DNA of 64,000 nucleotides from Natrialba swarupiae (GTDB lineage Archaea; Halobacteriota; Halobacteria; Halobacteriales; Natrialbaceae). A program made the position numbers and the translations under genes. Every line of letters starts with the position of its first letter. Position 1 is the first letter of the stretch. Of the stretch, positions 38,210-55,818 are shown piece by piece. The DNA lies in assembly GCF_008245225.1 (NCBI RefSeq), contig NZ_VTAW01000005.1, positions 1 to 64,000 on the forward strand, given 5' to 3'. The notes under the pieces were generated by a model. That model saw only the letters and a program-made list of their open reading frames with translations. It made no database searches and was not told where the DNA came from.

Positions 38210-41092
38210 TTAGTTCTGACGGCGGAGTGCCAGCATCGCGGCTGCGAGCAGCGCGACGAGGGCGACAGCAACGCCGAATCCGGGGATGTCGTCATCCTCG
38301 GCAGGCGGCTCGTCGTCGGTGTCGTCAGTTTCTGGCGGCTCCTCGTCAGTGTCGTCGGTTTCTGGCGGCTCCTCGTCAGTGTCGTCGGTTTCTGGCGGCT
38401 CCTCGTCAGCGTCGTCGTCAGCTTCGTCAGCGTCGTCGTCAGTCACGACTTCGTCGACGAAGATACCGTCGGTGGAGTCAACCGTGCTACCGCCGACGCG
38501 GTAGTTGACGATCGTCTCGGTGTCGGTCGAGCGCTCGCTGAAGTCGGTCGACTCGGCGGTGAAGCTACCGTCGCTGTCGATTTCGACGTCAGGGTCGTAG
38601 ACGAAGCTCGACTCGCCTGGCTGGTTCGAGATTCGGAGGTGACCGTCGGTGCCGGGTGCAACGTTGGTCGTACCGGTGATCTCGAAGTCGTCGCTGGCTT
38701 CGATCTGGACGAGTTCGTCCTCATCGAGGTGGTCGAAGACAGCCTCCGCGTCCTCGAGAGTGAACGTCGTCGAGACCGACTGCGTGGAGTCAGCCTGGTA
38801 GTACGGGAACGCTGCGGCGTCCGTGTCACCGCCAGCGCCACCCTGCCAGCTACGTTCGTTCGTGTCTTCATCGAAGCGGAAGCGGTCGTCACCGTCGGTC
38901 TCGTACTCGAGCTCGACGTTGAACTCGTCACCGTTTTCGATGGAGCGGTCGAACGGCTCGTCGCTCGTGTCGACGATGATGAAGAGTTCACCAGCGTCGT
39001 TGTCGACGAGCACGTAGACGTCGCTTTCGTCAGCGGTCAGGTCAATCTGGTTCGGGTCCTGGTTGCCGTGGGCAACCTGGTCCTCGATGACCATGTTCAC
39101 ACCCTCACCGTCGTCCTCGAGGAGCTCGTTGAGCACTGCGACTTCGTAGCCGTCCTCGAGTCCGTCGTTGAGGTCGTTGCTGTTCTCTGCGTAGTCGACT
39201 GCGGCGAGGTATCCGTAGATACCCTCGGCCTCAGCGTTGATGACGAGCTGGTCGTCGATCGCGACGTTCTCGCGCTCGGTCAGCTTGTCCTGCAGGTCTT
39301 CAACGTTGGTCTCCTCGTCAGCCGAGTCGCTCGGTCCGACCCACGTCGAGACGGAGTTGAGCTGCGGTTCGACGAGGTCGAGGATGGCGTGACCGATCTC
39401 GTTGTTGACATCGGATTCGCCGTCCTCGACGATGAAGTGACCGTCGCTGTCGACAGTCATGTCGTAGTCAGTTCCCCACTGGAGCGGTCGTGGGAGCTGA
39501 TCGAATCCGTCCTCACCGTCGCCTTCGTCGATCAGGTCGAGTTCGTCGAGGTACTCCTCGTACGTGAGGTACTCCTCGTCGACGTCATCTGCCCAGAAGT
39601 GTGGGCCGTCAGCGTCGTCGAAGCCACCACTGTGGAGGTAGCTCTCGACGATGTCGTCGTCGGAGTAGACGACCTGGTCGTGTTCGGCGTCTGCAGCGCC
39701 GATCGTTCGGGTGTTGACCGTGAACGTCACTTCGCCGTTGTCGCTGTCGTCTTCGATGTAGAAGACGTCGACGAAGCTGCTGTCCTCGTCACCGAACTGG
39801 ATGTAGGCGTCGTCGGTGTCCTCGAGTTCGACGGTGAACTCGACGAGGTCACCGGACGACTGCGTGTAGACGCTGTCGTCGAAGTTCGCTTCAGCGTCGG
39901 ACTCCGTGACGGTGATGTTCGCCGTCGCGGTTGCTTCCGTGTCCGTCTCTTCGAACTCGAACTCGTAGTCGTCCTCGCCGATGTCGGCGAAGTCGACGTC
40001 GTATTCGTCAGTGTCCGAGATGCCGGAGAACCGGATCATCTCGTCGTAGTCGTCCTCGTCTTCGTCGAGGAGCATGACGTTGAGCTCACCGTGCTCTTCG
40101 TCGAGGTCTCCATCGCTACGGAGGTAGTCGACGATGTCCTCGTAGGTAACGCCTTCGGTGTCGTCGATGTCGTCATCGTTGGCGACAACATCCTGAGCGA
40201 GGTCATTGGTGGCCTCGTCGCCGACAAAGATACCGAACAGTTCGTAGTCTTCGAGATCGCCGTCAGCGGTGACGTCGATGCTGTAGAAACCACGTTCGGT
40301 CTCGATCTCGAACTCGGTCACCGAGTTCGGACCGGCGTCGGTGACGGAGTCGTCGTCGAAGGCCGCGTCAACGTCGAGGACGTTGACGTAGAACGTGTTC
40401 TCCTCGGATTCGTCGACGCCGTCGATGTCGACGAAGTAGTAACCGGTGTCGAGGCTACCGGTGTCAACGACGATCTCGCCGTCGTTGTTGGAGGTAACCT
40501 GACGGACGCGCTCGGTGCCGTCGAAGTCGCCGTCGTCGAAGCCGTCGACAGCGATCAGGTTGTAGGCCTCGTTCGCGTCGATCGCGGTACCGGTGAGGGT
40601 TACTTCTTCACCCTGCCATGGGTCGTGGTTGCTGATCTCGAGTTCAGCAGGTGCGCCACCGTTGCCCGGTGCGGGGTCAGTGTCTGCGTCAACCGTTACG
40701 GTGAAGGTTTCCGAAGAAGCCTGATCGTTGACGACCGAGACGGTTTCAGAGTCACCATCTTCGGCACCATCAGCCGGGATGAGCGTGAACGAAACCGAGC
40801 GATCTGCTCGGTCGCTACCCCAGTCCCAGTTAACTTCGTTAGTGTTTTCGAAGTAATCTCCGCCGTCGGAGATGTCCTCTGCAGTCCAACCGTCAGGGAG
40901 GACTACGTTAATCGATGCTGTATCTGAAGAGCTCAGTTCCACCGTGGAACCGTCCTCGTGAACGTCTTGATCTTCAACGCTGATCTCCTGTGCTGCCGCG
41001 GGAGCGGCAAACGCTGCACTCACGGCAACAACCGAGAGTACCATGAGTACAGCCATGAAGACCGCGTTTACTTTCTTCTTTGTTTCTGTCAT
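38210..41092 (-). CDS. S-layer-type surface glycoprotein with PGF-CTERM (960 aa)
   Basis: The protein starts MTETKKKVNAVFMAVLMVLS with a signal peptide ending near AAAQE. The ectodomain is strongly acidic and beta-rich, with a BGTF-like first domain (DPWQGEEVTLTGTAID). A Pro/Glu/Thr/Asp linker with three 10-residue repeats of DTDEEPPETD type precedes the PGF-CTERM tail DDDIPGFGVAVALVALLAAA ending LRRQN. PGF-CTERM is the archaeosortase A signal for cleavage and lipid attachment. It is paralogous over most of its length to the 817-aa protein at 53365-55818 but has about 110 extra N-terminal residues. It is a probable major S-layer component. ATG 41092 gives the natural signal peptide. Confidence 0.9.
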   Translation of the reverse strand: MTETKKKVNAVFMAVLMVLSVVAVSAAFAAPAAAQEISVEDQDVHEDGSTVELSSSDTASINVVLPDGWTAEDISDGGDYFENTNEVNWDWGSDRADRSVSFTLIPADGAEDGDSETVSVVNDQASSETFTVTVDADTDPAPGNGGAPAELEISNHDPWQGEEVTLTGTAIDANEAYNLIAVDGFDDGDFDGTERVRQVTSNNDGEIVVDTGSLDTGYYFVDIDGVDESEENTFYVNVLDVDAAFDDDSVTDAGPNSVTEFEIETERGFYSIDVTADGDLEDYELFGIFVGDEATNDLAQDVVANDDDIDDTEGVTYEDIVDYLRSDGDLDEEHGELNVMLLDEDEDDYDEMIRFSGISDTDEYDVDFADIGEDDYEFEFEETDTEATATANITVTESDAEANFDDSVYTQSSGDLVEFTVELEDTDDAYIQFGDEDSSFVDVFYIEDDSDNGEVTFTVNTRTIGAADAEHDQVVYSDDDIVESYLHSGGFDDADGPHFWADDVDEEYLTYEEYLDELDLIDEGDGEDGFDQLPRPLQWGTDYDMTVDSDGHFIVEDGESDVNNEIGHAILDLVEPQLNSVSTWVGPSDSADEETNVEDLQDKLTERENVAIDDQLVINAEAEGIYGYLAAVDYAENSNDLNDGLEDGYEVAVLNELLEDDGEGVNMVIEDQVAHGNQDPNQIDLTADESDVYVLVDNDAGELFIIVDTSDEPFDRSIENGDEFNVELEYETDGDDRFRFDEDTNERSWQGGAGGDTDAAAFPYYQADSTQSVSTTFTLEDAEAVFDHLDEDELVQIEASDDFEITGTTNVAPGTDGHLRISNQPGESSFVYDPDVEIDSDGSFTAESTDFSERSTDTETIVNYRVGGSTVDSTDGIFVDEVVTDDDADEADDDADEEPPETDDTDEEPPETDDTDEEPPETDDTDDEPPAEDDDIPGFGVAVALVALLAAAMLALRRQN

Positions 41093-41458: not shown

Positions 41459-41623
41459 TCAGCCAAGCAAGTATCCACGCAGTCGCGTATAGTCGGCACC
41501 AGTTACGGTAACGCCATCGATCACGTTATTGCCATCGAGGAGTGCACCACGAAGCTGTGTCAGATCGGCACCGGTTACGCTGGTATCGTCAAACCCGCTA
41601 ACGCCGGCAACAGCGTCGTACAC
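41459..41623 (-). repeat. VTG-LRG dockerin-like module in the subtilase
   Basis: Codes for the last 54 residues: VYDAVAGVSG, repeat 1 VTGADLTQLRGALLDGNN, repeat 2 VTGADYTRLRGYLLG. It resembles the duplicated F-hand of dockerins but with shortened acidic loops. Confidence 0.8.
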
Positions 41624-43543
41624 GGGTTTGTCAACTGGATATTCGCTCCCGACGGTCAGCTCGATCGTCGTCGAGTCGTCATCGGTTTCGACGACGAGAT
41701 CGTGTTCACCAGATTCGAGACCGTCTGCGAACGTAAACGTCACCTGGTCGGTCTCACCCGGTTCGAGAGTGATGTACGTACTGTCGGTAGCATGATCGAC
41801 AGAAGCGACGATCTCCTGTGTATCGGATTTAGCGCCAGTGTTTGTAACAGCCACCTGGACGGTAAACGAGTCACCCTCGAAAATCGAGCCCACAGAGATG
41901 ACGTCCGTAATTTCAAAGGCGGCTCCCTGTGATTCCACTGTGCTACTAGCGTCGATCATTCCCTCTCCCACGTCGTGTCGTGGGTCGGTCGCTGGTTCGT
42001 CGACCCGGCTGAAGTCGACCGAGTTCGGGTTCGAGCCGTCACGGATCCGGTCAGCAGTTTCGTCCGCATCGAGCGACGGGTCGGCTCCTCGAACGAGGGC
42101 TGCGAGGCCCCCGACGTGCGGTGCAGCTGCGGACGTTCCCGCATACCCCCTTGAGCCGTACGCCGTGGTCGATACACTGGTCGGTGCGGCAACATCGATA
42201 CCGTCGCGCCCATCGAGTGTTGGGCCGCGGGAGCTATACGACGCGAGCGAACTATCGTAGTAGTTCACCGCTGCGACGGACATCGTGCTGTGTCCGACCG
42301 CGGGAGAGGTAACGCTCGAGGCAGGTGTCGTGTACACCGGTCGGCCGCCGCTCGCGAACAACTGTATTTCGTGGTCACCACCAGCGCCGACGTCGGCGAC
42401 GGCGACGGCATACGTTCCGGTTACGGGAGCCGGGAGCGAGATTTGTTCAGTCGGTGTTCCGGAGAGGTGGCTCGTCGACGATTCTTCGACGACGGCCCAG
42501 TTGCTTCCATCGTACACCAGCAACAGGAGGTTGTAGTGGTCGTTCGTGTACTCCCAGTCGTCCCACGTAAGCGTCGCCTGGATCCGTTGCCCAGCAGACA
42601 CCGAGAACCCGTTATTCAGGGGGTTGACGTTGCTTTCCCCGTCAAAATAGTGCAGTTTCGTTCCCCGATCATCGAACGATCCGAGATAATGTTCATCTCG
42701 GCTGTTTCCAGCGGCGTTGACCCAGACGACGTCGTCGTCTTCGACCGCTTCGTCCGCGACGCTCGCGATAAATCCACTTCCGTCGTTTGGTTGGGCGTAG
42801 AACCCAGCCGACATCACGATGACGTCGACGTCCGATTCGACGAGCCACTCAACTGCGTTCGCGTACCCGACCTCGGTTTCCATCCGGGCGAGATACAGAT
42901 CCGCATCCGGTGCAACGTCGGTGACGATCTCCGCGGTTGCGGTCCCGTGGTCGTTGTCGCCGCCGTTGTGTACCGTTCCCTCCGTGAACGATCGTGCATC
43001 GACGACGTTGTCGGCGATTTCGTCGTTTTCGACGTCGAACCCGGTTGGATCGAGGACTCCGACCGTAACGCCATCACCAGTCACGCCGTCGGCGTGTACC
43101 TCGTCGGCCTTGATCGTCTCGACGCCTTCGCTCTCGGTTCCGGGAGTCGCAATCGACGTCGGACGAACGCCGACCACCCACTCGATCGCTGCGATCGGCT
43201 CGGCAACGTCGTCGTCGACCTCGAGTTCTACGCGATCACCGTGCGTGTCACGAACGTCGCCGTACTCCTCGAGGCGCGTCGTTCGTTCGTCGGTCACCGC
43301 CGTCAGTTCGACGACCAGTTGTTCCGACTCGTCGTTGGAGTCGGCGTCGAAGGTGTCGGCCTCGACAGTGGCCGTCGACGGCTCTGCGTCGGGCAGTTCG
43401 TGGTCGACTTCGATCGTCTCGACGAGTTCCGACTCGTTGATCGACGGGCCGTCGTCGGCTGCAGCGGGCGATACGCCGACGGCGACCAGCCCGATGCAGG
43501 CGATCGCAATCAGGAGGATGGCAACCGAGAAGCGACGGTTCAT
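41459..43543 (-). CDS. Secreted subtilisin-like protease with dockerin-like tail
   Basis: This 694-residue protein has a Sec signal peptide (1-29), an N-terminal propeptide-like region (about 30-145), and an S8 peptidase domain with Asp165 (VGVLDPTGFDV), His199 (GGDNDHGTATAE), Asn280 (VNAAGNS) and Ser471 (YAGTSAAAPHVGG). The domain carries a jelly-roll insertion of about 100 residues between Asn and Ser. A CARDB-like beta domain follows (about 545-635), then a 54-residue C-terminal module with two VTGADxTxLRGxLL repeats, shared with three other proteins nearby. There is no PGF-CTERM. Its start overlaps the stop of the upstream gene (ATGA). Confidence 0.9.
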   Translation of the reverse strand: MNRRFSVAILLIAIACIGLVAVGVSPAAADDGPSINESELVETIEVDHELPDAEPSTATVEADTFDADSNDESEQLVVELTAVTDERTTRLEEYGDVRDTHGDRVELEVDDDVAEPIAAIEWVVGVRPTSIATPGTESEGVETIKADEVHADGVTGDGVTVGVLDPTGFDVENDEIADNVVDARSFTEGTVHNGGDNDHGTATAEIVTDVAPDADLYLARMETEVGYANAVEWLVESDVDVIVMSAGFYAQPNDGSGFIASVADEAVEDDDVVWVNAAGNSRDEHYLGSFDDRGTKLHYFDGESNVNPLNNGFSVSAGQRIQATLTWDDWEYTNDHYNLLLLVYDGSNWAVVEESSTSHLSGTPTEQISLPAPVTGTYAVAVADVGAGGDHEIQLFASGGRPVYTTPASSVTSPAVGHSTMSVAAVNYYDSSLASYSSRGPTLDGRDGIDVAAPTSVSTTAYGSRGYAGTSAAAPHVGGLAALVRGADPSLDADETADRIRDGSNPNSVDFSRVDEPATDPRHDVGEGMIDASSTVESQGAAFEITDVISVGSIFEGDSFTVQVAVTNTGAKSDTQEIVASVDHATDSTYITLEPGETDQVTFTFADGLESGEHDLVVETDDDSTTIELTVGSEYPVDKPVYDAVAGVSGFDDTSVTGADLTQLRGALLDGNNVIDGVTVTGADYTRLRGYLLG

Positions 43544-44181
43544 CGAACCGCAACACCCCTACGACCGGCTCGCTGGATCGAATACGCCAGCACCAGAGCG
43601 ATCGTCGCGATCGCCGGCGTCCAGCTGCCGAGCGCATCGTCGTTCGAGTCGGTGTCCGCTTCGTCACGAGCCGGGTCGGATTCGGCGTCAGGGTCCACCT
43701 CGATCGACTCCGTCTCGAGGTCGTTGGACGTATCGGTGCCGTCGGATTCGGTCGACGGGTCGTCGTCGGCCATCGGGACGGCTTCCTGGGGTGGGCGGAC
43801 GTACTCGACGTCGTCGGCCGCCGCGAGGTCGCGGAGTTGATCGACGGGGACCGACGCTTCGATCAGGGTCTTGCCGCCTCCGCTGTACGATCGTTCGACC
43901 GTCGCGTCGTATCCCGAGGGAAGCTCTCGGTCGCCCTCGAGTTCGACGACGACGAGGACGCTACCGTTCTTGTATGTAATGTCATTCGCGTGCGCGTATA
44001 CCTCGGGATCGGACGCGTCAGTCAGATCGTGCAACACTGGTGCGAGTGATTTCGTCTCATTCATGGGCGAGGAATCGTGGGTAGACTCGTCGGCCACCGC
44101 GACGGGCGTCATGGCGACTGTCGTCACGGTCGCGGTCATCACGGAGAAGATGAGGATCTTCCAGACGAGACTATCTGCCAT
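43540..44181 (-). CDS. Membrane-anchored propeptide-like protein coupled to the subtilase
   Basis: This 213-residue protein starts MADSLVWKILIFSVMTATVT (signal peptide). Residues about 40-125 form a compact domain (YKNGSVLVVVELEGDRELPS, KTLIEASVPVDQLRDLAAAD, DVEYVRPPQEAVP) that resembles the I9-type propeptide/inhibitor region preceding subtilisin-like domains. An acidic Ser/Thr linker and a C-terminal transmembrane helix (WTPAIATIALVLAYSIQ) follow. The stop overlaps the protease start in ATGA, and a TATA element at 44203-44211 is placed for leaderless transcription from 44181. It may be a membrane-bound chaperone or inhibitor of the protease; this is inference. Confidence 0.75.
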   Translation of the reverse strand: MADSLVWKILIFSVMTATVTTVAMTPVAVADESTHDSSPMNETKSLAPVLHDLTDASDPEVYAHANDITYKNGSVLVVVELEGDRELPSGYDATVERSYSGGGKTLIEASVPVDQLRDLAAADDVEYVRPPQEAVPMADDDPSTESDGTDTSNDLETESIEVDPDAESDPARDEADTDSNDDALGSWTPAIATIALVLAYSIQRAGRRGVAVR

Positions 44182-44330
44182 ACCGACCAGTAGCGATGTC
44201 GAGGATAAATACGTACTGACCGAGCGATCGCTCGAGGTTCGATGCTCGAGACGGCTCGAGAGGGTGTGGACAGACGACTCTGCCGGTATACGGTGGGCTC
44301 GAACCAAGTGCGAGAGCTATCGCTGGCCGG

Positions 44331-44378
44331 TGAAAAATAAAGAAAGTGGAAACACGACGCCGACGGTCGGAGTCGTGT
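44331..44378 (-). terminator. Terminator of the 1097-aa surface gene
   Basis: On the minus strand ACACGAC-T-CCGAC-C-GTCGG-C-GTCGTGT forms a long, nearly perfect hairpin (44352-44378). It is followed by a T-rich run with TTTCTTTATTTTT. Confidence 0.7.
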
Positions 44379-44390
44379 GGTTAGCGTGCG

Positions 44391-44558
44391 TTAGTTCGCC
44401 AGTTCGCCACGCAGGAGCGTGAAGTCGTTACCAGTAACGGTAACACCGTCTTCAAGCTCGTTGTCACCGTCGATGAGGTGACCACGGAGCACAGTCAGGT
44501 CGTTACCAGTGACGCCGTCGTCGGCGTCGCCGGTGAGACTAGCAACTGCGTTGTAGAC
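44391..44558 (-). repeat. VTG-LRG dockerin-like module in the giant surface protein
   Basis: Codes for the last 55 residues: VYNAVASLTG, repeat 1 VTGNDLTVLRGHLIDGDN, repeat 2 VTGNDFTLLRGELAN. Confidence 0.8.
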
Positions 44559-47500
44559 GTCTTCGTCAACGACGGGGTCGTCGTTGCCGTCGTCCTCGGA
44601 GACGGTCAGCGTACCGGTTGCGGAATCGTCGTCGGAGTGGACGCTGAATTCGTGTTCACCCTCTTCGTCGGGTGCTTCCATGGTGAATTCAACAACTTCG
44701 TATTCTCCATCGACGAGTTCGACTGGCTGCTCCGTCTGTGCGACGGTCACACCATCAACGCGGAGGTCAATGGTCTGAGAGTCGAGTTCGACACCAGTGT
44801 TCGTGACGTTTGCAGAGACAGTCACGTCTTCACCGGGTGCGGCCGTAGCGGTTTCGGGTTCGAGGTCTTCAACTGCGAAGAAGGCCTCCTCAATCACAAC
44901 TTCGGTGAGCACCACGTCAGCGTTGGTGGTACCTGGCGTAAGTTCGTTAGTGGTTGCGAACCCGTCTTCGCCATCGAACTCAGCCGTCACTCGGTACTCC
45001 TGTTCGGTTGGGAGGTCAACGTACGAGTACGATCCGTCGGGACCGGTGGTACGCGTGTCGTCGTAGTCATCGAACAGGTTGGATTCATCGAGGCTGAGCC
45101 ACTCTTCGTTGTTAGCGTCCCAGACCTGAAGCGTGACGGTGGCACCGGGGATGTTGTTGTCCTCGGCGTCCACAACGTCACCAGTCAGCTGTGCCGTGGT
45201 GAAGACACCGACGTTAGCCTGGCTGGAGTGGTTGTTTAGGTCGTTTCGCTCGCCTTCGTCATCTGCAGTGACGTAGTCGTCGTGGTCGCTGTTCGTCGTC
45301 CAAGCCGTTACGTTGGTGTTGGACAGTCCAGCGCCAAGCGATTCAATTGTTTCAGTGTCGTTAGCGACGAAGGTGAACTCGACGATACCGTCATCGCCGG
45401 AGTTACCAGTCGCAACGCCGTCTTCATCAGCTTCGAGGATGTGACCTGGGTGGTGGTCGATCAGTTCAGCACTGACATCCTGGTTCTGTGCCGGGGTGAA
45501 GTCCTCGGCATCGGAGCCAACCGAAGCGGAGGTCACGTTGACCTCAATCGTTGCGGACTCACTTGCTTCGACGTTCGCGTATTTCTGCTCGTCAACGGTC
45601 ACGTCGAGGTCGTAGTCCTGTGGTGGCTGGTCAAGGACGAACGAAACGTCACCGATACTCGTTCCTTGCGTGGAACGGTCGTTCGTCGTGAGGTCGAGTC
45701 GGTAGTCAGCGACCAACTCTTCGAGCGACGTGCTCGGGTTGTCGCTCAGGTCCTCAGTGTTGTATCCGTTAGCCTTGACGTAGACGTTGAAGTCCTGGTC
45801 GCCATCGTCACCGGCGAGTCCGGTGATGGTGAAGCGAGCGTCCTCATCGTTAGGGTTGTCGTGGAGGAACGCGTCGCCGTCGGCCTGGAACTGCTGTGCG
45901 GCGTCGAGGCTCTGGTCTGCGTCGTCGTAGGCAACCCAGACGTCGACGTCGTCACCGGAGAGTTCGTTGCCGTCCATGTCGACAATCTCGCCGGTGATCT
46001 TCTGGTCACCCTGCAGGAAGTAGGTGACGTTGTTGTAATCTCGGTCGTCGGTCGAGAGCGGATCACCGCTCTGGTTCGTCGCCGTTGCAGTGAACCGCTC
46101 GGTGACGATCGGTTCTTCGAGGGTCGTGTCGTTCGCGAACTCCGACGTCACGTCGAAGGTTGCGTAGCTGAGTGCGCCTTCGGGTGCGTCGCCGTCAGGG
46201 TTCTGGATGTGATCGGAACCTTCCAGATCCTCGACGTCGATCACGTCGTCGCCGTCGATCGTAACGGTAAGGGAGCGAACGGCTTCGTCATCGCCTTCTT
46301 CGTCTTCACCAGCGAAGGTACCAGGTGCTTCAGCTTCAGGTGGTTCACCGGCTGCTTCGTGGAAGTCCGAATTGATGTCGCCAGTCAGCGGGAATTCCTC
46401 ACCGTCAAGGAACGTAAACTCGAGTTCGACCTCGAGGTCGCCATTAATGCCCGAGTCCTGCTGGTTCTGGGTTACGACAGCGAATTCGGCGTTGTTATCG
46501 AACTCGCCGTTCGCGAACAGCGTTGCGTCTTCGCCAACGACTTCGTAGTCGCCGTCATCTTCGTCGATTTGGACGACGTCAATGTACTGCGCATCAAGCG
46601 CAGAGTCGAGCGTCAAGGTCTCGGTGGGGCCCTCCTGGTTCGGCGTGTGGAGCGAGACCTGCGTCGTATCGGAGCTGAAGTCGCGCTCCTCATTCTCTGC
46701 TCGGAGGACGTAGTTGACGTAATTACTGGGGTCGTCAGAGGTACCTACAGCAAGGCCTTCAAAGGTATGGGTGTTACTTCCTTCGCCAGTAGTAGCGGTA
46801 GCAACTGGCTCCGCACCGGCACCATAGCCATCTGCAGTGTAGAGTTCAACTGACGAGTCTGGGATACCGTCACCTTCTCTGTCTTGGACCTGAACCGTGA
46901 TCTGACCCTCAACGTCGAGACCAACCTCGAAGGTCACATCTCCTTCATTTGCACCATCAATGCCAGCTTCAGTCGCATCGGTAGTAATGGTGAGTTGGGC
47001 GGTGTTAACATTATCGTCATCCACAACACCATCAATTTGAGCGGTGTCGACATCTTCGAATGTGACCTCGCCATCGCCATCGGCAGTGGCAGTCACATCA
47101 TAGTCGACGCCATCACTCAGAGTGATGGTCTCTTCATTGTCGTAAGGACCAAGGTTTTCGACAGTCGCCGTGATGTCAACCACCTGTCCATAGTAGGCAG
47201 GGGCTGGTTCTTCGACTTCAACAATGCTGTACGCGGTGTGGTAGACTTCCGCATTAGCATCGTCAATTACCTCGCCAGCGGTACCATCATAATTCTCGTC
47301 ACCAACGCTGACAGTACCACTGTTACTATCTGCAAGGGTGTATGCGTTGTAAGTAACGGAAGACTCGTCCGTCTGAAGATCTCCCGTCAGTTCAATATCG
47401 GATTCCTGATCCTCAGGAACACCCTCTTCAACTGCAACAACAAGATCATCGTTGTCCGTTACGACAACCGTTGCAGAATCATCTGTCGTATCAGTACCGA

Positions 47501-47684
47501 GATCAACGACGATCTCGTCATCGCTTGACAACACTTGATCTTCTACAGTGATGTCAATATCTTCAGCATCTGCCACCGCCGAGCCCACGAATGCCGTGGA
47601 CATGGCGATGACAGACAGTACCATAATCGCTGCGAGGAACGCTGCACGTCCCTTCTCGCGATAAGTTATGTCGTCTCTTGTCAT
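44391..47684 (-). CDS. Giant surface protein (1097 aa) with dockerin-like tail
   Basis: The protein starts MTRDDITYREKGRAAFLAAI with a signal peptide ending near AVADA, very similar to that of the 817-aa S-layer protein. The ectodomain contains many beta domains: a CARDB-like unit (ITATVENLGPYDNEETITLS), a carboxypeptidase-regulatory-like unit (LTGDVVDAEDNNIPGATVTL) and another CARDB near the C-terminus (VSANVTNTGVELDSQTIDLR). N-glycosylation sequons such as NVT, NDT and NHS are present. It ends in the 55-residue VTG-LRG module, not in a PGF-CTERM. It is a probable S-layer-associated or alternative S-layer protein. A long 5' leader of about 130 nt is predicted. Confidence 0.88.
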   Translation of the reverse strand: MTRDDITYREKGRAAFLAAIMVLSVIAMSTAFVGSAVADAEDIDITVEDQVLSSDDEIVVDLGTDTTDDSATVVVTDNDDLVVAVEEGVPEDQESDIELTGDLQTDESSVTYNAYTLADSNSGTVSVGDENYDGTAGEVIDDANAEVYHTAYSIVEVEEPAPAYYGQVVDITATVENLGPYDNEETITLSDGVDYDVTATADGDGEVTFEDVDTAQIDGVVDDDNVNTAQLTITTDATEAGIDGANEGDVTFEVGLDVEGQITVQVQDREGDGIPDSSVELYTADGYGAGAEPVATATTGEGSNTHTFEGLAVGTSDDPSNYVNYVLRAENEERDFSSDTTQVSLHTPNQEGPTETLTLDSALDAQYIDVVQIDEDDGDYEVVGEDATLFANGEFDNNAEFAVVTQNQQDSGINGDLEVELEFTFLDGEEFPLTGDINSDFHEAAGEPPEAEAPGTFAGEDEEGDDEAVRSLTVTIDGDDVIDVEDLEGSDHIQNPDGDAPEGALSYATFDVTSEFANDTTLEEPIVTERFTATATNQSGDPLSTDDRDYNNVTYFLQGDQKITGEIVDMDGNELSGDDVDVWVAYDDADQSLDAAQQFQADGDAFLHDNPNDEDARFTITGLAGDDGDQDFNVYVKANGYNTEDLSDNPSTSLEELVADYRLDLTTNDRSTQGTSIGDVSFVLDQPPQDYDLDVTVDEQKYANVEASESATIEVNVTSASVGSDAEDFTPAQNQDVSAELIDHHPGHILEADEDGVATGNSGDDGIVEFTFVANDTETIESLGAGLSNTNVTAWTTNSDHDDYVTADDEGERNDLNNHSSQANVGVFTTAQLTGDVVDAEDNNIPGATVTLQVWDANNEEWLSLDESNLFDDYDDTRTTGPDGSYSYVDLPTEQEYRVTAEFDGEDGFATTNELTPGTTNADVVLTEVVIEEAFFAVEDLEPETATAAPGEDVTVSANVTNTGVELDSQTIDLRVDGVTVAQTEQPVELVDGEYEVVEFTMEAPDEEGEHEFSVHSDDDSATGTLTVSEDDGNDDPVVDEDVYNAVASLTGDADDGVTGNDLTVLRGHLIDGDNELEDGVTVTGNDFTLLRGELAN

Positions 47685-47803
47685 GTGTTATTAATTATGT
47701 TCGTGTTCCTTTCGCCGGGGCGGCCACGCTCGAGTTCCGATCGGTAACGTAATGTTGAACGTCCGGATGGACGATCACCGATCGTACTTACTTGCCTGAC
47801 CAT

Positions 47804-47846
47804 GGGTAGGGGTACGGCACGTATGTTCAGAGTCGTGTCTTATATA
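47804..47846 (-). promoter_or_regulatory. Promoter and 5'-end motif of the giant surface gene
   Basis: A TATA element (TATATAA on the minus strand) lies at 47840-47846. The predicted transcript start, about 27 nt downstream, coincides with GTACCCCTACCC at 47815-47804. The same motif occupies the same place in the 817-aa S-layer gene. Confidence 0.55.
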
Positions 47847-48618
47847 GTTTGTTGTCTTTCTCTGCAAATCATATGATCGGTATCGAATACGTAATGAGGT
47901 GTTTCCACCCGTCGTCGAAATTCGTCTCCGGGATTTTCCGTGCCCTGGGTTACTCGAGGCCGATTCGAGTGGAGCCGCGAGATCGCTCGAGTTCGTATCA
48001 CAGGTACGGTAATACTGGGCTTTTACGAACTGGTACGGCGGACATACACCAATTGTCTGACTTCTCGAACTCGATCGGCTTGAATTGGATCAACTCGAGG
48101 AACGTCGACCCTTCGTGGCCCGGCCGGGAAAACGGCGTTCCTACCGTGCGGTAGCGAGGGTAACAGTGTCCATACCACGGGCCAAGACAACAGTGACCTC
48201 ACCATGGAACAATCAGTACAGCGACGTCGCCGATCCACACCACCCATCTTTCTCTGAAAACCGCAGGGAGTACCAGTTACGAGTTTGTGACAAGAGACGA
48301 CTGGTACTGTCACCGAAAGGCGGATGGTTACCGGTAGCTCGCCCTGGTACCCCTACCCACTACGGCGGGGATCGGCGAAACGCGGGAGAGCAGGGCGGTA
48401 CCCCATCCGTCCCCGCCACCGAAGCGTTAGTAACCACTGCTTATCAACTTGTTTAATTCCTGTAATGAAAGTCAGGATTTCCTAGGAGTCGTGGAGAAAT
48501 CGGGACCTACTCGAGCGTTCGTCGAATAGCTGCCGCGAGAATAATTCAATCATGAACGAGTTTCACAGACTGATGACTGTCGGTAGCTCTTACACGTTCG
48601 TCGTGATCCGATGACAGT
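47847..48618. other. Intergenic region between divergent surface genes
   Basis: About 770 bp without a supported gene. It contains an inverted repeat AGTACCAGT / ACTGGTACT at about 48269-48309 and the motif GGTACCCCTACCC at 48346-48358, in the same orientation relative to the beta-helix gene as in the other surface genes. A related CGGTACCCCATCC occurs near 48398. Short frames here have unconvincing composition. Confidence 0.4.
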
Positions 48619-49713
48619 ATGTCGTCGAAACGGGGGCACACAGAGCGAATCGGCCGGCGGACGTATCTGGCGGGACTCGGCGCGACCGTCCTCGGGGCGA
48701 GCGCGACCACCACCGCCGCGGCGTCGGCGTACGATACCGTCACCGTCGAGAAGGGAACCCGCCACGTCCACGAGATCGATGCGGGCGAAACCCTCGAGAA
48801 CACGGTGTTCGACGTCACCGCACCCGGCGCGGGCGTGACGATCATCGCGAGAGAAACCGACTGGACGATCCGGAACGTCGCCGTCGAGGGGACAGTCGAC
48901 ATGGGCAACGCCACGATCCTCGGCGTCGCCGACACCGACGGCGGCACCTCACACATCGAGAACGTCTACCTCGGCGACGGCTCCGTCTACGAGGAGAAGG
49001 GCGCGACCGGCGTCTGGGTCGACCCCGACCACGACGGCCACCTCGAGATCGACCGGGTAAACGTCCAAGAGATGAGCGACAACGCCTTCTACTGTTCCGC
49101 GCCGGGCACCGACTGGGGACGCGGCGGGACGGTCGCCTTACGCGACTGTTACGCCGCGAACTCCTGGGTCTCTCAGTACCGGGTCGCCGAGGGGAGCCTC
49201 GAGAACTGCGTCGCTGCCGTCACCGACGACCGGGAGTACCGCCGCGGCCGAGGCCTCTGGGCGTGGTCACCCGGCCCCGTCGACGTCGACGGATGCCAGT
49301 TCGCGATGAACGGCCACCACTACTCGTTCGTCGCGGGTGCGAACGAGGAGGGAAGCCGGATCGACGTCCGCGACACCGAGTGGGACGACGAGTTCCACGG
49401 TGGGTGGAACACGTACGGCGACGGAACCGTGAACTTCAAGTCCGGCAACGGCAACGATCCACGAAACGTGGTTCCCAAAAAGTGTCCGAGTTCGGTCGAA
49501 GACGCCCTCGAGACGAGCGACGAGTCACCAGTCGACGACGACGTCTACGACGCGGTGGCCGGCCTCAGCGGTGGAGACGACGATCGGGTGACCGGCGCCG
49601 ATCTGACGTTACTCCGTGGCAGGCTCATCGACGGCGACAACGAGATCGACGGCGTCACGGTGACCGGATCGGATCTCACGCTGTTGCGTGGCTATCTGCT
49701 CGATCGATCCTAG
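48619..49713 (+). CDS. Tat-exported beta-helix surface protein with dockerin-like tail
   Basis: This 364-residue protein has a Tat signal (IGRRTYLAGLGATVLGAS) with cleavage near AAASA. Residues about 40-285 read as a right-handed parallel beta-helix (ENTVFDVTAPGAGVTIIA, TIRNVAVEGTVDMGNATILG, LEIDRVNVQEMSDNAFYCS), a fold found in pectate-lyase-like and carbohydrate-binding proteins. No classical lyase motif is visible. A short Ser/Asp linker leads to the 56-residue VTG-LRG module at the C-terminus, almost identical to that of the neighbouring beta-propeller protein. It is probably displayed at the cell surface or bound to it. Confidence 0.85.
   Translation: MSSKRGHTERIGRRTYLAGLGATVLGASATTTAAASAYDTVTVEKGTRHVHEIDAGETLENTVFDVTAPGAGVTIIARETDWTIRNVAVEGTVDMGNATILGVADTDGGTSHIENVYLGDGSVYEEKGATGVWVDPDHDGHLEIDRVNVQEMSDNAFYCSAPGTDWGRGGTVALRDCYAANSWVSQYRVAEGSLENCVAAVTDDREYRRGRGLWAWSPGPVDVDGCQFAMNGHHYSFVAGANEEGSRIDVRDTEWDDEFHGGWNTYGDGTVNFKSGNGNDPRNVVPKKCPSSVEDALETSDESPVDDDVYDAVAGLSGGDDDRVTGADLTLLRGRLIDGDNEIDGVTVTGSDLTLLRGYLLDRS
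49543..49713 (+). repeat. VTG-LRG dockerin-like module in the beta-helix protein
   Basis: Codes for the last 56 residues: VYDAVAGLSG, repeat 1 VTGADLTLLRGRLIDGDN, repeat 2 VTGSDLTLLRGYLLDRS. The 35 nt at 49621-49655 are identical to 51609-51643. Confidence 0.85.
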
Positions 49714-49857
49714 ACTCGAGGGAGCGACGGATGGTCGGTCGCATCCGTCCGTCGAACAGTAACGTCACGTGACACTTGTTCGCTGAGCTAGCTGTTTCGT
49801 TCACCCACACATAGCTGGGGAGTAACGGAGATTGAGAGCAGGCAGATATGCTGACAG

Positions 49858-49938
49858 ATACGGTTTACTGTCGATCAGTTCCGGTGAGACCGCGATCCGG
49901 GCGGCGGTCTCATCGGTGAAAAGCGACAGTAATCGTAT
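49858..49938. repeat. Palindromic repeat, copy 4 (free-standing)
   Basis: An 81-bp palindrome with outer arms ATACGGTTTACTGTCG / CGACAGTAATCGTAT and inner stem CCGGTGAGACCGC / GCGGTCTCATCGG. Unlike the other four copies it does not touch a stop codon; it lies 144 bp after the beta-helix gene. The remaining sequence between 49714 and 50093 shows only the promoter of the next gene. Confidence 0.8.
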
Positions 49939-50062
49939 GAGGAACTGGTTCGTCGCTAACCGACTTTCCTGAGTTGTAGCCGTTTTCCGGCGGTTTCTCG
50001 AGTCACCGGGGTATGCTAATGAGTCGAAAGTAACCTACACACTTACTTCACTCTTGCTGAAG

Positions 50063-50071
50063 AATTATAAG
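50063..50071 (+). promoter_or_regulatory. TATA box of the beta-propeller gene
   Basis: AATTATAAG at about 50063-50071 lies some 26 nt before the ATG at 50094, the spacing of a leaderless haloarchaeal promoter. This favours 50094 over the internal ATG at 50229. Confidence 0.55.
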
Positions 50072-50093
50072 AGATCTCTGACAGATTTTGAGT

Positions 50094-51695
50094 ATGGCTA
50101 TTTCAAATAGTCGACGTGATGGGGCGGAAACAGAAACGTGCGGGGAGGACAACAATGGTACGGCGTCCGAGCGGAGTGGTGCGGCAACTGGAGACCGAGC
50201 GAAAGCGTCATCGATAGGCGACCTCAGGATGGACCGCCGAACGATGTTGCAGACGGCTGTCGCTGGACTCGTCGGCCTGGGGACGGTGTCGGGAACGGCG
50301 AGCGCGGGCAGAAATGTGACGACGACCGCGAGCAACGGACCGCTCGTGTACGTCGGAACCTCACTCAGCTACAACGCGTACGACGCGACGACAGGAGACC
50401 ACGTGTGGACGTTTCCGACGGAAGGGAGTTCGTGGTCGTCACCGACCGTAGTCGATGGGATTCTCTACGCCGGTGACAACGGCGACGACGACGATGACGC
50501 GACGCTCTATGCGGTCGACGCGACCACCGGCGACGAAATCTGGTCCTTCACGGATCCCGGTGACTGGGTGTGGTCCTCTCCTACCGTGGTCGACGGAACA
50601 GTCTACGTGGGCGAGGGTGGCGGATCTGCGACCGATGGGTGGGATTACTCGGTGTTCGCAATCGATGCGGAAACCGGAGATCTGGTCTGGGAGTTCGACG
50701 AGGTCGAAGACCGCGTCCAATCCTCGCCTCACGTAGTCGACGGAACCGTTTACGTCGGCTCCCACGACAGTCACCTTTACGCGCTCGACGCCGAAACGGG
50801 TGACGAGGAGTGGTCCGTCCAGCCAGCGACGGGACGGATCAGCGCGTCGCCGACCGTGGTCGACGACACCGTCTACGTCGGCGTAGACCATTCGGGTCTG
50901 TACGCGTTCGACACCGACACGGGCGACGAACAGTGGTCGGTCACGGATAAAATCCAGGGAGTTCAGTCGTCGCCGACCGTGGTCGACGGAATCGTCTACT
51001 TCGGTGAGGGCAACACCTCGACTCACACCGGCGCCTTGCACGCCGCCGACGCGACAACGGGGGATCACGAGTGGACGTTTTCCGAACCAGATGCACCGGT
51101 CACGTCGTCACCGACCGTCTCCAATGGAACTGTCTTCGTCGGTGAGGGACACCACGAATACAAAGACATATCGAACGATGGTGACGTATACGCCGTCGAC
51201 GCAGCGACGGGCGAGCACCAGTGGACCTTCACTAATCCTGCCGACAGTCCGGTCTGGTCTTCGCCCACTGTGTACGATGGGACGCTATACGTGGGTATCA
51301 GTCCCGGGGGATTGTTCGCGATTGACGCCGATACGGGCGATAAGTTGTGGTCTACGGACGATGGGGTAGGCCGCTCGTCACCAACCGTCGTAGCCGACCC
51401 CGAGAACGGCAACAGCGTGGACTCACGAATCCACCTGGGTACGCTTGGGCATCACCACGAGTGGATGGGTGTGATGCCCGACAGTGGTGGAGACGACGAT
51501 AGGACTGATGATCCACCAGTCGATGACGACGTCTACGACGCAGTTGCGACTCTCAGCGCCGATGATAGTGATCAGGTGACAGGTGCGGATCTAACGATCC
51601 TCCGCGGGAGGCTCATCGACGGCGACAACGAGATCGACGGCGTTACCGTTACTGGTGGAGATTACACGTTATTGCGCGGACATCTCTTCAATTGA
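50094..51695 (+). CDS. PQQ-type beta-propeller surface protein with dockerin-like tail
   Basis: This 533-residue protein has an unusually long N-terminal extension (about 45 residues) before a Tat signal (MDRRTMLQTAVAGLVGLGTV). The body is seven or eight repeats of the form SSPTVVDGTVYVGxxDxxLYALDAETGDExWSV, the BamB/PQQ-like beta-propeller. Such proteins scaffold or bind at the surface; the quinoprotein catalytic residues are not evident. The VTG-LRG module forms the last 54 residues. An ATG at 50229 would give a standard Tat signal, but the promoter position supports 50094. Confidence 0.85.
   Translation: MAISNSRRDGAETETCGEDNNGTASERSGAATGDRAKASSIGDLRMDRRTMLQTAVAGLVGLGTVSGTASAGRNVTTTASNGPLVYVGTSLSYNAYDATTGDHVWTFPTEGSSWSSPTVVDGILYAGDNGDDDDDATLYAVDATTGDEIWSFTDPGDWVWSSPTVVDGTVYVGEGGGSATDGWDYSVFAIDAETGDLVWEFDEVEDRVQSSPHVVDGTVYVGSHDSHLYALDAETGDEEWSVQPATGRISASPTVVDDTVYVGVDHSGLYAFDTDTGDEQWSVTDKIQGVQSSPTVVDGIVYFGEGNTSTHTGALHAADATTGDHEWTFSEPDAPVTSSPTVSNGTVFVGEGHHEYKDISNDGDVYAVDAATGEHQWTFTNPADSPVWSSPTVYDGTLYVGISPGGLFAIDADTGDKLWSTDDGVGRSSPTVVADPENGNSVDSRIHLGTLGHHHEWMGVMPDSGGDDDRTDDPPVDDDVYDAVATLSADDSDQVTGADLTILRGRLIDGDNEIDGVTVTGGDYTLLRGHLFN
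51531..51695 (+). repeat. VTG-LRG dockerin-like module in the beta-propeller protein
   Basis: Codes for the last 54 residues: VYDAVATLSA, repeat 1 VTGADLTILRGRLIDGDN, repeat 2 VTGGDYTLLRGHLFN. Confidence 0.85.
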
Positions 51696-51926
51696 CAGCT
51701 GGGCTCGAGCGAAACCGACGGACGAATATTCACTAACCCCGGTACGTCGAGTACTGCCGGGTTGCCCGAGTTGTGGTCCGCCAAGATAACGTTTCGGGCC
51801 TCGAGTTGTGAGAGTGCGATGCAAACCAGTCGTTGTCATCCCGATTCCAAAGCTGACCACAACTTGTCCGTCGATCGGCCCACGAATAATATGGTTCGAA
51901 AAGAGCCGAGAGGTCGGGTGTAGCCG

Positions 51927-52245
51927 TTAACTCTGCCGACGAAGCGCCACCATAACGGCCGCGAGTAGCCCAACGAGTGCGACCGTGACGTCGAATCCGG
52001 GAGCGCTGTCGTCGGTTTCAGTCGGGTCGTCGTCGGTCTCGACAGGTTCGCCGGTAGATCCTTCGAGAACGTCACAGTGACCAGCAAGAACGGTCACCAT
52101 CGTGGTCGGTCGGCGACGCCGTGTCGATCAGTGTGATACCGAAGACTGCCCCACCGGCCATTCGTAGCACGGATCGACGGCCCAGTTGCCCGTTGCCATA
52201 CCCCCACGGAGCACAATGAATCGATACACGTTCTACGACGGCCAT
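51927..52245 (-). pseudogene. Relic of an exported PGF-CTERM surface protein
   Basis: Two ends of a surface protein survive next to each other in different frames. At 52072-52245 a frame holds a Tat-like signal (LGRRSVLRMAGGAVFGITL). At 51927-52100 a 57-codon frame runs from VLEGSTGEPVETDDDPTETD to the sorting tail PGFDVTVALVGLLAAVM...LRRQS. VLEGS and the DEP-rich linker match the 817-aa S-layer protein (DVLEGSDDEPAEGDD). The whole ectodomain is missing and the two parts are out of frame, so this is a deletion-derived pseudogene. Confidence 0.75.
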
Positions 52246-52285
52246 CAACACGTGTAAATCAGTTTTACAGTGGTTGAGTTGAATC

Positions 52286-52795
52286 CTAGAACTCCGCAAA
52301 AAGAGCGGCCCGATCCGAAGCAGCGAATCGATAGTTATCGCGGTCGGCAAGTGCATCGAGGATTGTTCTGAGTTCGTTTTCACTTGTGATCGCGTCGACT
52401 CGAATCGCTGCCGTAAGAACGAGCGTGAGGTCCCAAATTGACACGTCACAGTGAGATCCAACCGTTCCGACGTGAGCATCGTCGGTTACAAGCCGACGAT
52501 CGCGTTTGGCTGCTATCGCGAGACACTGCGCATCGGTTGTCGACAGTGCATGATCACGAATCTCGTTTGCCAACTCGAGTTCGGATGCTGTTGGAGAAAG
52601 GATGTTCAACCAGCCATCGTTGTAGGCTTTGATTGTATCGATTCGAGAGACGAAGCCGTAGCCTGCAGCGTCGGCACGATCGAGTTCGGTGACGACTGCT
52701 GTCGGTGTTCCAATTGTGTCGAGAACCGCCGGTAACAACGAGAGTCGCTCGATCTTCGCGAGTGCACTCAAAACATTGTTGTCGACGATCGTCAT
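52286..52795 (-). CDS. PIN-domain toxin (VapC-like)
   Basis: This 169-residue PIN-fold ribonuclease has the acidic metal-binding residues Asp5 (TIVDNNVLSAL), Glu37 (AVVTELDRA), Asp88 (LSTTDAQCLAIA) and Asp105/Asp106 (LVTDDAHVG), the full VapC set. Such toxins cleave tRNA or rRNA unless held by the antitoxin. It follows the UPF0175 gene by 11 bp on the same strand. The length is slightly above the usual 130-150 residues owing to a C-terminal helix extension. Confidence 0.85.
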   Translation of the reverse strand: MTIVDNNVLSALAKIERLSLLPAVLDTIGTPTAVVTELDRADAAGYGFVSRIDTIKAYNDGWLNILSPTASELELANEIRDHALSTTDAQCLAIAAKRDRRLVTDDAHVGTVGSHCDVSIWDLTLVLTAAIRVDAITSENELRTILDALADRDNYRFAASDRAALFAEF

Positions 52796-52806
52796 CGATG
52801 TGAAAG

Positions 52807-53364: not shown

Positions 53365-55818
53365 CTACTGTCGTCGCAACACCAACATCGCGGCCGCGAG
53401 CAACGCAACGAGCGCAACCGCAACGCCGAATCCGGGGATGCCGTCGTCGGTCTCGGTCGGTTCGTCGTCGCCTTCAGCCGGTTCGTCGTCCGTCTCAGCG
53501 GGTTCGTCATCGCCCTCCGCTGGTTCGTCGTCACTCTCGACCGGTTCGTCGTCGCCTTCAGCCGGCTCGTCGTCCGACCCCTCGAGTACGTCGACGAAGA
53601 TGCCGTCCGCGACGGTGATCGGCTCGGTGCCGACGCGGAGCTGGATCGACGTCTCGTCGTCGGCGGTCCGTTCGCTGACGTCGACGGGGTCCGTCTCGAG
53701 GTGGCCGTCGGCCTCGATCTCGGCGTCGGTGTTGATGAGGAACGACGCCGTCTTGCCCGCATCGGAGAGTCGAACCATCGCGTCCGAGCCGGGTGCGACG
53801 TTCGTCTCGCCGGTGAGGACGACCTCGTCGCCGATCTCGATCTGGACGCGATCGGTCTCGTCGACGTTGTGGAACGTCGCCGCGGGTTCGACGACGGCGA
53901 CCGTCGTGCTCACCGCCTGGTCGGCGTCGGTGGGCAGGGTCGGGAAGGCGGGGGCGTCCCCGCCGCCCGCGCCGCCGTCGAAGGCGTCGGAGCCGAACTC
54001 GTAGCGGTCGTCGGCGTCGGTCTCGTAGGCGACGTCGACGGCGAACTCGTCACCGACGTCGACCGAGCGGTCGAACGCCGAACTCGAGTCGGTGTCGACG
54101 ACGACGAACAACTCGCCGGCCTCGGGATCGACGAAAACGAAGACGTCCTCGTCGCCGGCCGTGAGATCGAGGGTGGCCGGGTTCTCGTTGCCCGTCGCGC
54201 CGAGAGCCTCGACGTCGAAGGCGACGCCCTCGCCCTCGAGTTCGGTAACTTCGTGGAGGGTGGTCGCCGAGAAGCCGTCCTCGAGTGCGTCCCAGTCGCC
54301 CTCGTGGGCGACCATGGCGCCGGAGAGGCCGGTGGCCTCGACTTCGATCACCAGTCGGTCGCCCTCGGCGACGTCCGCGCGCTCGGTGAGGCTGTCCCGA
54401 AGCTCGTCGAGGTCGTCCTCGTCGGCGGCGTCGCCGGGTGCGACGTGCGTACTGACGCTCTCGAGTTGTGGCTGGACCAACTCGAGGGTCGCGTAGCCGA
54501 TCTCGTCGTCGACGCTCGACTCGCCGTCCTCGACGACGAACGCGCCGGAGCCACTGGCCGTGAGGCTGTACTCCGTGGGCTGGAGCGGCCGGGTCAGCTG
54601 TTCGTCGGGGTCGTCACCGCTCTCGAGGAGATCGAGTTCCTCGAGGTACGCGGCGAACTCGCCCTCGAGTTCGTTCGCGGGATCGACCTCGTCCTCGTAG
54701 AACGCGGCGGACTCGACCTCGTCGCCGCCGCCGTGGACGAGGCTCTGGACGACGTCGTCCTCGGAGTGGACGACCTCGTCGACGGACGCCCCTGGAGCGC
54801 CGGCGGTGCGGGTGTTGAGCGCGAACGTGACGTCGCCGCTGTCGTCGTCGTCCTCGAGGTAGAGCACGTCGGCGTAACCCGCGTCTTCGTCGCCGAGCTG
54901 GAGGTACGTGCTGTCGGCGTCCTCGAGGTCGACGGTGAACTCGACGATATCGCCGGCGGCCTGCGTGTAGACGCTCTGGTCGAAAGCGGCACCGACGTCG
55001 TCGTCGGCGACCGTGATCGACGCGCCGGTCGCGGCCGCGCTGTCGACGGATTCGAACGCGAACTCGTATTCGCCGCCGTCGACGTCCGCGAAGGAGACCG
55101 CCTCCTCCGTATCCTGGACGTCGACGAGGACGATCGTCTCCTCGGCGTCGTCCTCGTCTGTGGCGTACAGCGACGCGCCGAACGGACCGAACTGGTTCTC
55201 GCCGGGGACGAGGTCGTCGCCCTCGACGGAGGTTCGGTTTTCGCTCTCCGTGGCCGCCTCGAGGTCGTCCTCGTCGGCGACGATCGCGAACAGTTCCTCG
55301 GCGTCGAGGTCGCCGTCGGCGCTGACGTTGACGGAGTAGAAGCCGCGGTTCGACTCGATCTCGAGGTCGGTCGTCGACTCGTCGCCGGCGTTCGTGACCT
55401 CGTCGGCGTCGAAGGATGCGCCGAGAACCTGGACGTCGAGGTGGAACGTGTGCTCTCGAACCGGCTCGACGCCGTCGACGCGGAGGGTGTAGTCGCCACC
55501 CTCGAGGTCGTCGGTGTCGATCGTGACGACGCCGTCGTCGTCGGCGACGACCTCCCTGACGAACGTCGTACTGGAGACATCGTCGCCGTCGAACTCGTCG
55601 ACTCGCTCGAGGCTGTACGCGGTGTTCGATTCGATGGCTGTACCCTGTACCGTGACGTCCTGGCCCTGCCAGGTGTCGTCGTGACTGTACTCGACGCCGT
55701 CCGACGCCACGGCAGCGCCGGCGAACGCGGAGGACATTGCAACGACCGAGAGGACCACGATCGCAGCGAGGAACGTCGCCCGTCCCGTCGTGCGATCCGA
55801 ACGTGAGTGTCGTGTCAT
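53365..55818 (-). CDS. S-layer-type surface glycoprotein with PGF-CTERM (817 aa)
   Basis: The protein starts MTRHSRSDRTTGRATFLAAI with a signal peptide ending AVASD. It is a paralogue of the 960-aa protein: BGTF-like first domain (DDTWQGQDVTVQGTAIESNT), SNRGFYSVNVSADGDLDAEE, and a C-terminal part with ETNVAPGSDAMVRLSD. The linker holds about seven DDEPAEG/DDEPVES-type repeats. The tail is DDGIPGFGVAVALVALLAAA with LRRQ, the archaeosortase PGF-CTERM signal. It lacks the extra N-terminal domain of the 960-aa protein. It is probably an S-layer subunit or a variant of it. Confidence 0.9.
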   Translation of the reverse strand: MTRHSRSDRTTGRATFLAAIVVLSVVAMSSAFAGAAVASDGVEYSHDDTWQGQDVTVQGTAIESNTAYSLERVDEFDGDDVSSTTFVREVVADDDGVVTIDTDDLEGGDYTLRVDGVEPVREHTFHLDVQVLGASFDADEVTNAGDESTTDLEIESNRGFYSVNVSADGDLDAEELFAIVADEDDLEAATESENRTSVEGDDLVPGENQFGPFGASLYATDEDDAEETIVLVDVQDTEEAVSFADVDGGEYEFAFESVDSAAATGASITVADDDVGAAFDQSVYTQAAGDIVEFTVDLEDADSTYLQLGDEDAGYADVLYLEDDDDSGDVTFALNTRTAGAPGASVDEVVHSEDDVVQSLVHGGGDEVESAAFYEDEVDPANELEGEFAAYLEELDLLESGDDPDEQLTRPLQPTEYSLTASGSGAFVVEDGESSVDDEIGYATLELVQPQLESVSTHVAPGDAADEDDLDELRDSLTERADVAEGDRLVIEVEATGLSGAMVAHEGDWDALEDGFSATTLHEVTELEGEGVAFDVEALGATGNENPATLDLTAGDEDVFVFVDPEAGELFVVVDTDSSSAFDRSVDVGDEFAVDVAYETDADDRYEFGSDAFDGGAGGGDAPAFPTLPTDADQAVSTTVAVVEPAATFHNVDETDRVQIEIGDEVVLTGETNVAPGSDAMVRLSDAGKTASFLINTDAEIEADGHLETDPVDVSERTADDETSIQLRVGTEPITVADGIFVDVLEGSDDEPAEGDDEPVESDDEPAEGDDEPAETDDEPAEGDDEPTETDDGIPGFGVAVALVALLAAAMLVLRRQ

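Follow-up and report, generated by a model that had tools for sequence, protein, structure and literature searches.

Dockerin-like C-terminal tails of secreted Natrialba swarupiae proteins may dock on a domain of the adjacent S-layer glycoprotein

The stretch analyzed here (the window, positions 1 to 64,000 of contig NZ_VTAW01000005.1 of the haloarchaeon Natrialba swarupiae) holds a cluster of four genes for secreted proteins that end in the same short module, the type-A tail, beside a gene for an S-layer glycoprotein. The minus strand encodes a secreted subtilase (41459..43543; Peptidase_S8 PF00082, E 3e-21; CARDB PF07705, E 9e-6) and a giant surface protein of 1,097 amino acids (44391..47684), which has a haloarchaeal surface-glycoprotein signal peptide (TIGR04207, E 6e-10) and no PGF-CTERM; the plus strand encodes a Tat-type secreted beta-helix protein (48619..49713), whose orthologues match Beta_helix, and a Tat-type secreted PQQ beta-propeller protein (50229..51695, longest open reading frame [ORF] from 50088; PF13360, E 2e-47). 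By alignment, the tails occupy 41462..41635 (minus strand, subtilase), 44394..44570 (minus, giant protein), 49531..49704 (plus, beta-helix protein), and 51519..51692 (plus, propeller protein), and they match an own-genome profile at E 8e-38, 1.5e-34, 5.7e-39, and 2.7e-37, respectively. S-layer glycoprotein 1, the proposed carrier of the receptor (38210..41092, minus strand; TIGR04126, E 4e-12; NF045517, E 4e-18; TIGR04207, E 3e-9), ends in a PGF-CTERM anchor and likely starts at the ATG at 41092, the longest ORF beginning at 41170. Right after its signal peptide lies an extra N-terminal domain, R1 (40682..40993, minus strand), our candidate receptor for type-A tails, which is lacking from the 47% identical paralogue, S-layer glycoprotein 2 (53365..55818, minus strand).

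Mean column identity in the four-tail alignment is 73%, and the consensus common to the four ORF ends reads VDxxVYxAVAxxxGxDDxxVTGxDLTxLRGxLIDGDNEIDGVTVTGxDxTLLRGxL. The type-A profile finds exactly these four matches in the whole 4.2-Mb genome (99 contigs; E 1e-34 to 6e-39), so that the likeness goes far beyond chance. Pairwise synonymous divergence between copies (dS) ranges from 1.05 to saturation, with low nonsynonymous divergence (dN, 0.13 to 0.32); the copies are therefore old and under purifying selection, and recent duplication or gene conversion is ruled out by dS. Among 394 haloarchaeal genomes and all 125 available genomes of the family, in which gene calls come from a simple ORF picker based on acidic composition, the sole further clear bearer is G214, whose orthologue of the giant protein has the tail; the locus is syntenic and also encodes a thioredoxin reductase and an S-layer glycoprotein. 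Weaker matches in these class and family searches (E 0.003 to 1) proved on reading to be out-of-frame or unrelated, that is, noise. The type-A tail has no match in a scan of a genome contig collection or among plasmids, nor in Pfam (E ≤ 10), NCBIfam, or, by sequence, the PDB, and literature searches turned up no description of such tails.

An earlier note, made from the letters of the window alone, had placed this block at the extreme C-terminus of four unrelated folds, never together with PGF-CTERM. The alignment and the own-genome profile bear out its position, the Pfam matches confirm that the hosts are unrelated (the beta-helix protein through its orthologues), and TIGR04126 matches none of the four tailed proteins. 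Its length of 54 to 56 residues grows to 58 to 59 when the leading VDxxVYxAVA helix is counted, and the acidic linker said always to precede it is overstated, being weak in the subtilase, where only GSEYPVDKP separates the CARDB domain from the tail.

The structure prediction that the note had proposed gives a confident three-helix module (AlphaFold2, five type-A tails; predicted local distance difference test score [pLDDT] 90.7, predicted template modeling score 0.73), whose helices span 3-9, 22-33, and 46-57, the last two being separated by a short hairpin (38-43). There are two VTGxDxTxLRGxL units, and VTGxD begins each of the two long helices. Type A thus has the tandem loop-helix (F-hand) duplication of dockerins and lacks their calcium-loop ligands (D or N at positions 1, 3, and 5, D at 12): only the D at position 12 is invariant, loop 1 varies at positions 1, 3, and 5, and the hairpin takes the place of loop 2 in the model. 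PF00404 (Dockerin type I) matches neither these tails nor anything else in the genome, and a Foldseek search of the type-A model against the PDB, run without a folded positive control, returned nothing at E ≤ 0.001 and only weak EF-hand entries. The profile comparison with dockerins that the note had suggested is marginal (hhalign against 30 haloarchaeal dockerins, P 0.007, with 4/300 column shuffles equally good). Since the dockerin profile and the calcium loops fail, we do not file type A as a dockerin; the kinship seen by the note gains indirect support from EF-hand-like and dockerin-like tails that fill the same slot on homologous proteins.

A further tail in this slot, type B, also has two repeats (consensus DxDGxVxTxGLRxAIDDWRxGxIDTxLLRDVIDAWRSG) and ends the subtilase of G214 at the same locus. 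Its predicted structure (AlphaFold2, pLDDT 87; helices at 5-9, 20-32, and 37-49) has the three-helix order of type A. Type B is patchily distributed, occurring in 21/125 family genomes with, for example, 23 copies in G214, 7 in G407, 13 matches in G403 (some from duplicated contigs), and 3 in the window genome (G000; C26:322845, C45:14216, and C99:99437). The note had held that homologues at internal positions or in cytosolic proteins would speak against docking; the type-B modules, related in slot and helix order, are carried by proteins with export signals, and of 51 modules seen in context 44 form the very end of their protein, 6 directly follow a signal peptide, and 1 is internal, as part of a tandem, PGF-CTERM being absent from all the proteins that bear them. 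Those directly after a signal peptide (L147, L129, L143, L125, L148, and L152) are on CAP-like and metallo-beta-lactamase-like proteins and beta-helices. Scanning with type B gave one locus in the genome contig collection (Natronococcus pandeyae), plasmid matches in three haloarchaeal records, no match among viral contigs, and nothing significant by sequence in the PDB. A DNA-pattern scan of viral contigs gave 22 loci. A third type, C (YDTNDNGQIDINEVLTAIQDNNNGDIGTTEVLTVLQAYNTDQEV), is a homologue of B by hhalign (E 2.6e-10); its EF-hand loop is nearly canonical, and its matches to Pfam EF-hand families stay below threshold. When type C is compared with haloarchaeal dockerins, 0/300 shuffles are as good. 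Finally, the giant protein and a subtilase of G413 have dockerin-like tails (E 3.5e-5 and 2e-7 with a haloarchaeal dockerin profile).

The tail is a detachable module under selection, and within a genome its type is matched across hosts. Orthologues of the beta-helix protein (60 to 73% identity) end in A in the window and in B in G265, G294, G299, and G381, and six others, intact at 60 to 65% identity, have no tail and stop within 3 residues of the core. Because the window gene groups with the B-tailed orthologues (support 89/91), one tail has probably replaced another. Similarly, a paralogue of the propeller protein in the same genome (67% identical) ends in tail B, and the orthologues of the giant protein end in A (window, G214), B (G092), C (G005, G204), a B-like tail (G145), or a dockerin-like tail (G413). 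Across 36 tails, similarity is 0.404 for different hosts in the same genome, 0.203 for the same host in different genomes, and 0.189 otherwise (permutation, 0/5000 for same genome and different host; 0.62 for same host and different genome). The cleanest case is that of G005 and G145, two genomes of one genus in which the cores of the giant proteins are 77% and those of the beta-helix proteins 76% identical; both tails have been replaced, and they agree with each other inside each genome.

The S-layer glycoproteins follow the same pattern. Tail clusters adjoin an S-layer glycoprotein gene in the window and in G214, G092, G407, G403, G005, G204, G145, and G413, and the S-layer proteins beside them have an extra domain of about 100 to 140 residues right after the signal peptide. 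Comparing these N-terminal domains among the same genomes by shuffled-sequence Z scores, we observe four groups, namely, the window with G214 (Z 22), G145 with G092, G407, and G403 (Z 8 to 22), G005 with G204, and G413, and these are also the groups formed by tail type (A, B-like, C, and dockerin-like, respectively). R1 accordingly matches only the domain of G214, the one other type-A genome. A hand calculation for eight genomes, which ignores phylogeny and counts G005/G204 once, puts the probability that the two partitions coincide by chance at about 0.002. Within genus g2, N-terminal domain and tail type switch together between G145, G092, and G403 on one side and G005 and G204 on the other; the S-layer proteins of G005 and G145 are 62% identical in their bodies and unrelated in their N-terminal domains.

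A second candidate partner, the B-linked domain R2, is encoded near type-B tails. A search with its profile picks out 16 proteins, which come from 13 of the 50 neighborhoods of B tails (797 kb); the 23 control stretches, 431 kb mostly taken from genomes that bear tails, contain no match. Four of the 16 had trained the profile, and the remaining 12 give a conditional binomial P of 0.006. Most R2 proteins are either membrane-anchored (S-layer, PGF-CTERM, or C-terminal helix, with one to four R2 copies) or B-tailed themselves, and R2 genes directly abut a B-tailed gene in G033 (from another family), in G105, at two loci of G255/G046, and in G214. In the last of these, a membrane-anchored R2 protein is encoded just upstream of the lone B-tailed subtilase, which explains a B tail at an otherwise type-A locus. 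In Pfam, the putative receptor domains come closest to PF10633 (NPCBM_assoc/NEW3; 7.5e-9 for R3, the domain paired with type C, 1.9e-3 for R2, and 2.6e-3 for R1). PF00963 (cohesin) has no match among the N-terminal domains, and R2 has nothing significant by sequence in the PDB, where cohesins are among the weak matches; against haloarchaeal cohesins, hhalign aligns R2 over 81 columns (probability 53%, E 1.3e-4, 0/200 shuffles). The S-layer N-terminal domain of G413, cohesin-like by eye, failed a profile test (13/200 shuffles).

Taken together, these patterns suggest, with a probability of roughly 0.6, that the dockerin-like tails dock secreted proteins non-covalently on a cognate domain of the S-layer glycoprotein, most likely R1. 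The tail would be a small folded docking module of three helices in two EF-hand-like half-repeats that tethers proteins without a membrane anchor to the cell surface with no covalent link; its receptor would most likely be the N-terminal beta-sandwich R1, and the S-layer glycoprotein that carries R1, encoded next to the tail genes, is itself anchored by PGF-CTERM. If tail and domain bind, exported proteins with no anchor of their own would be held on the S-layer. The proposal of the earlier note, that the tails are docking signals for one shared receptor at the cell surface, is thus well supported by the exchangeable tails, the match within genomes, and a candidate receptor domain that tracks tail type. 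More generally, docking on the S-layer may be modular, with tail families (A, B, C, and dockerin-like) that each have a beta-sandwich receptor of their own, inserted N-terminally in the S-layer glycoprotein or carried by other membrane-anchored proteins; tail and receptor would then be exchanged jointly, as a matched pair, from one close relative to another. We regard the odds on this wider scheme as evenly balanced.

Several observations weigh against this reading. Physical binding, the S-layer as its site, and EF-hand ancestry of type A are what we infer from the patterns above, and the case for R1 comes from two genomes. In G005 and G145, the giant tail and the S-layer N-terminal domain are neighboring segments, so that one recombination could have moved both, and the beta-helix tail is the only clearly separate replacement event in this pair. 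An R2 gene was not found within the fetched DNA at 29 of 42 lone B-tail loci, and there is no R2 domain in the stretches fetched around the three B tails of the window genome. Foldseek finds no dockerin and no significant PDB match for the type-A and type-B models, and hhalign detects no sequence homology between the two types (279/300 shuffles equally good), which have in common only helix order and slot. The boundary between B and C is soft, since the giant tails of G145 and G005 score alike against the B profile.

Alternatively, the tails could bind each other or another tailed protein in a surface self-assembly, the S-layer N-terminal domain varying merely because it shares a recombining locus. 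Tails that match across hosts inside a genome, clustered tail genes, and the adjacency of giant tail and N-terminal domain in G005 and G145 are all compatible with this. We nevertheless consider it unlikely, as membrane-anchored proteins with R2 are also encoded next to B-tailed genes that lie outside the S-layer locus (G033, G105, G255, G046, and G214), and genomes with a single tail, such as G381 and G294, would lack a partner. A role as a general cap for folding or stability, or as a module that binds sugar or another substrate with no protein partner, is harder still to credit: C-terminal dockerin domains of haloarchaea, and dockerin-like ends, have been proposed as substrate binders (PMC10963439, PMC13260240), but the tail-less orthologues are intact at 60 to 65% identity, and matching of subtypes across unrelated hosts inside a genome is not expected of either.

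Two further explanations seem very improbable to us. The extreme C-terminal place of the tail on unrelated cargo and its mutual exclusion with PGF-CTERM would suit a secretion or processing signal for a dedicated translocase or sortase, like the C-terminal domain of the type IX secretion system or a CTERM tag; yet the tail is modeled as a folded helical module with neither a hydrophobic segment nor a basic end, type-B modules also stand right after signal peptides (6/51) and in tandem, and no common processing enzyme is seen in the tail neighborhoods. The window genome does encode a PGF-CTERM-anchored PF00963 cohesin protein (C25:54223-54573) for which the tail, given its marginal profile likeness to haloarchaeal dockerins, might be a canonical dockerin. 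The lack of a Dockerin_1 match and of conserved calcium ligands speaks against this, and the cohesin co-occurrence that the note had proposed as a check does not discriminate: cohesin occurs in 112 of the 125 genomes of the family, of which almost none has type-A tails, and is not detected in G407, which bears 7 B tails. Canonical cohesin, being nearly universal in the family, is thus ruled out as the discriminating partner, and the S-layer N-terminal domain is the better candidate.

The nearest known parallel to docking on the S-layer is the pairing of dockerin I (PF00404) and cohesin (PF00963), in cellulosomes and in non-cellulosomal archaeal proteins. Both involve a small duplicated helix-loop module, C-terminal or sometimes N-terminal, on diverse secreted proteins, with a (here proposed) beta-sandwich partner on an anchored protein; the R2 proteins that are tailed themselves resemble adaptor scaffoldins, and the anchored ones resemble anchoring scaffoldins. 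In contrast, type A lacks the Pfam match, the calcium-loop consensus, and a fold match, and the proposed partner is NEW3-like, lies on an S-layer glycoprotein, and belongs to a system whose types switch between close relatives. To our knowledge, NPCBM_assoc/NEW3 (PF10633) and the related CARDB and DUF11 beta-sandwiches are not known as docking receptors. PGF-CTERM and archaeosortase A (TIGR04126) likewise attach haloarchaeal exoproteins to the surface, and the signal is present on the proposed receptor; it is, however, a covalent, transmembrane tripartite signal that is never found on the tailed proteins examined. SLH domains attach proteins to the prokaryotic cell envelope through a terminal module, but they bind cell-wall polymer and anchor the S-layer protein itself, which here would be the receptor.

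How haloarchaeal secreted proteins with neither lipid nor PGF-CTERM anchor are retained at the surface is, as far as we know, largely open. A tail and receptor system on the S-layer glycoprotein would, if real, be a partial answer and a novel mode of protein attachment to the archaeal cell surface. It would also assign a function to the additional N-terminal domains that some S-layer proteins have, and would provide a docking pair, stable in salt, with which to display proteins on archaeal cells. Because the subtypes switch in coordination between close relatives, specificity is directly testable.

Among the other loci, proteins that join receptor-like domains with a tail or dockerin, in the manner of adaptor scaffoldins, are encoded at L144:8376-10007, L150:12395-13405, L148:6298-7290, L162, and L182. 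Earlier archaeal surveys did not find multi-cohesin scaffoldins (PMC9012536). In G209, we observe a 2,089-amino-acid ORF with at least 13 PF00963 matches that is multi-cohesin-scaffoldin-like (C1:81770-87256), within a cluster (C1:77-110 kb) in a genome that has 30 cohesins and 13 dockerins; a similar cohesin cluster lies in G043 (C1:470-492 kb).

In the window itself, the subtilase gene is preceded by that of a 255-amino-acid protein with a signal peptide and a C-terminal membrane helix (43540..44307, minus strand; from the ORF table), the end of which overlaps the subtilase start by 4 nucleotides. The protein matches no Pfam family. By eye it has a stretch like a subtilase propeptide, and for this reason it may act on the subtilase, either as an anchored chaperone or as an anchored inhibitor. 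Beyond the propeller gene lie gene remnants (51836-52479) that include a PGF-CTERM-like end (51933-52053), whose DNA is 70 to 75% identical to both S-layer 3′ ends, and a Tat signal like that of a 350-amino-acid tailed protein of G413. A VapBC-like pair (52286-53103) adjoins these remnants, and G413, too, has a VapBC-like pair beside its tailed genes.

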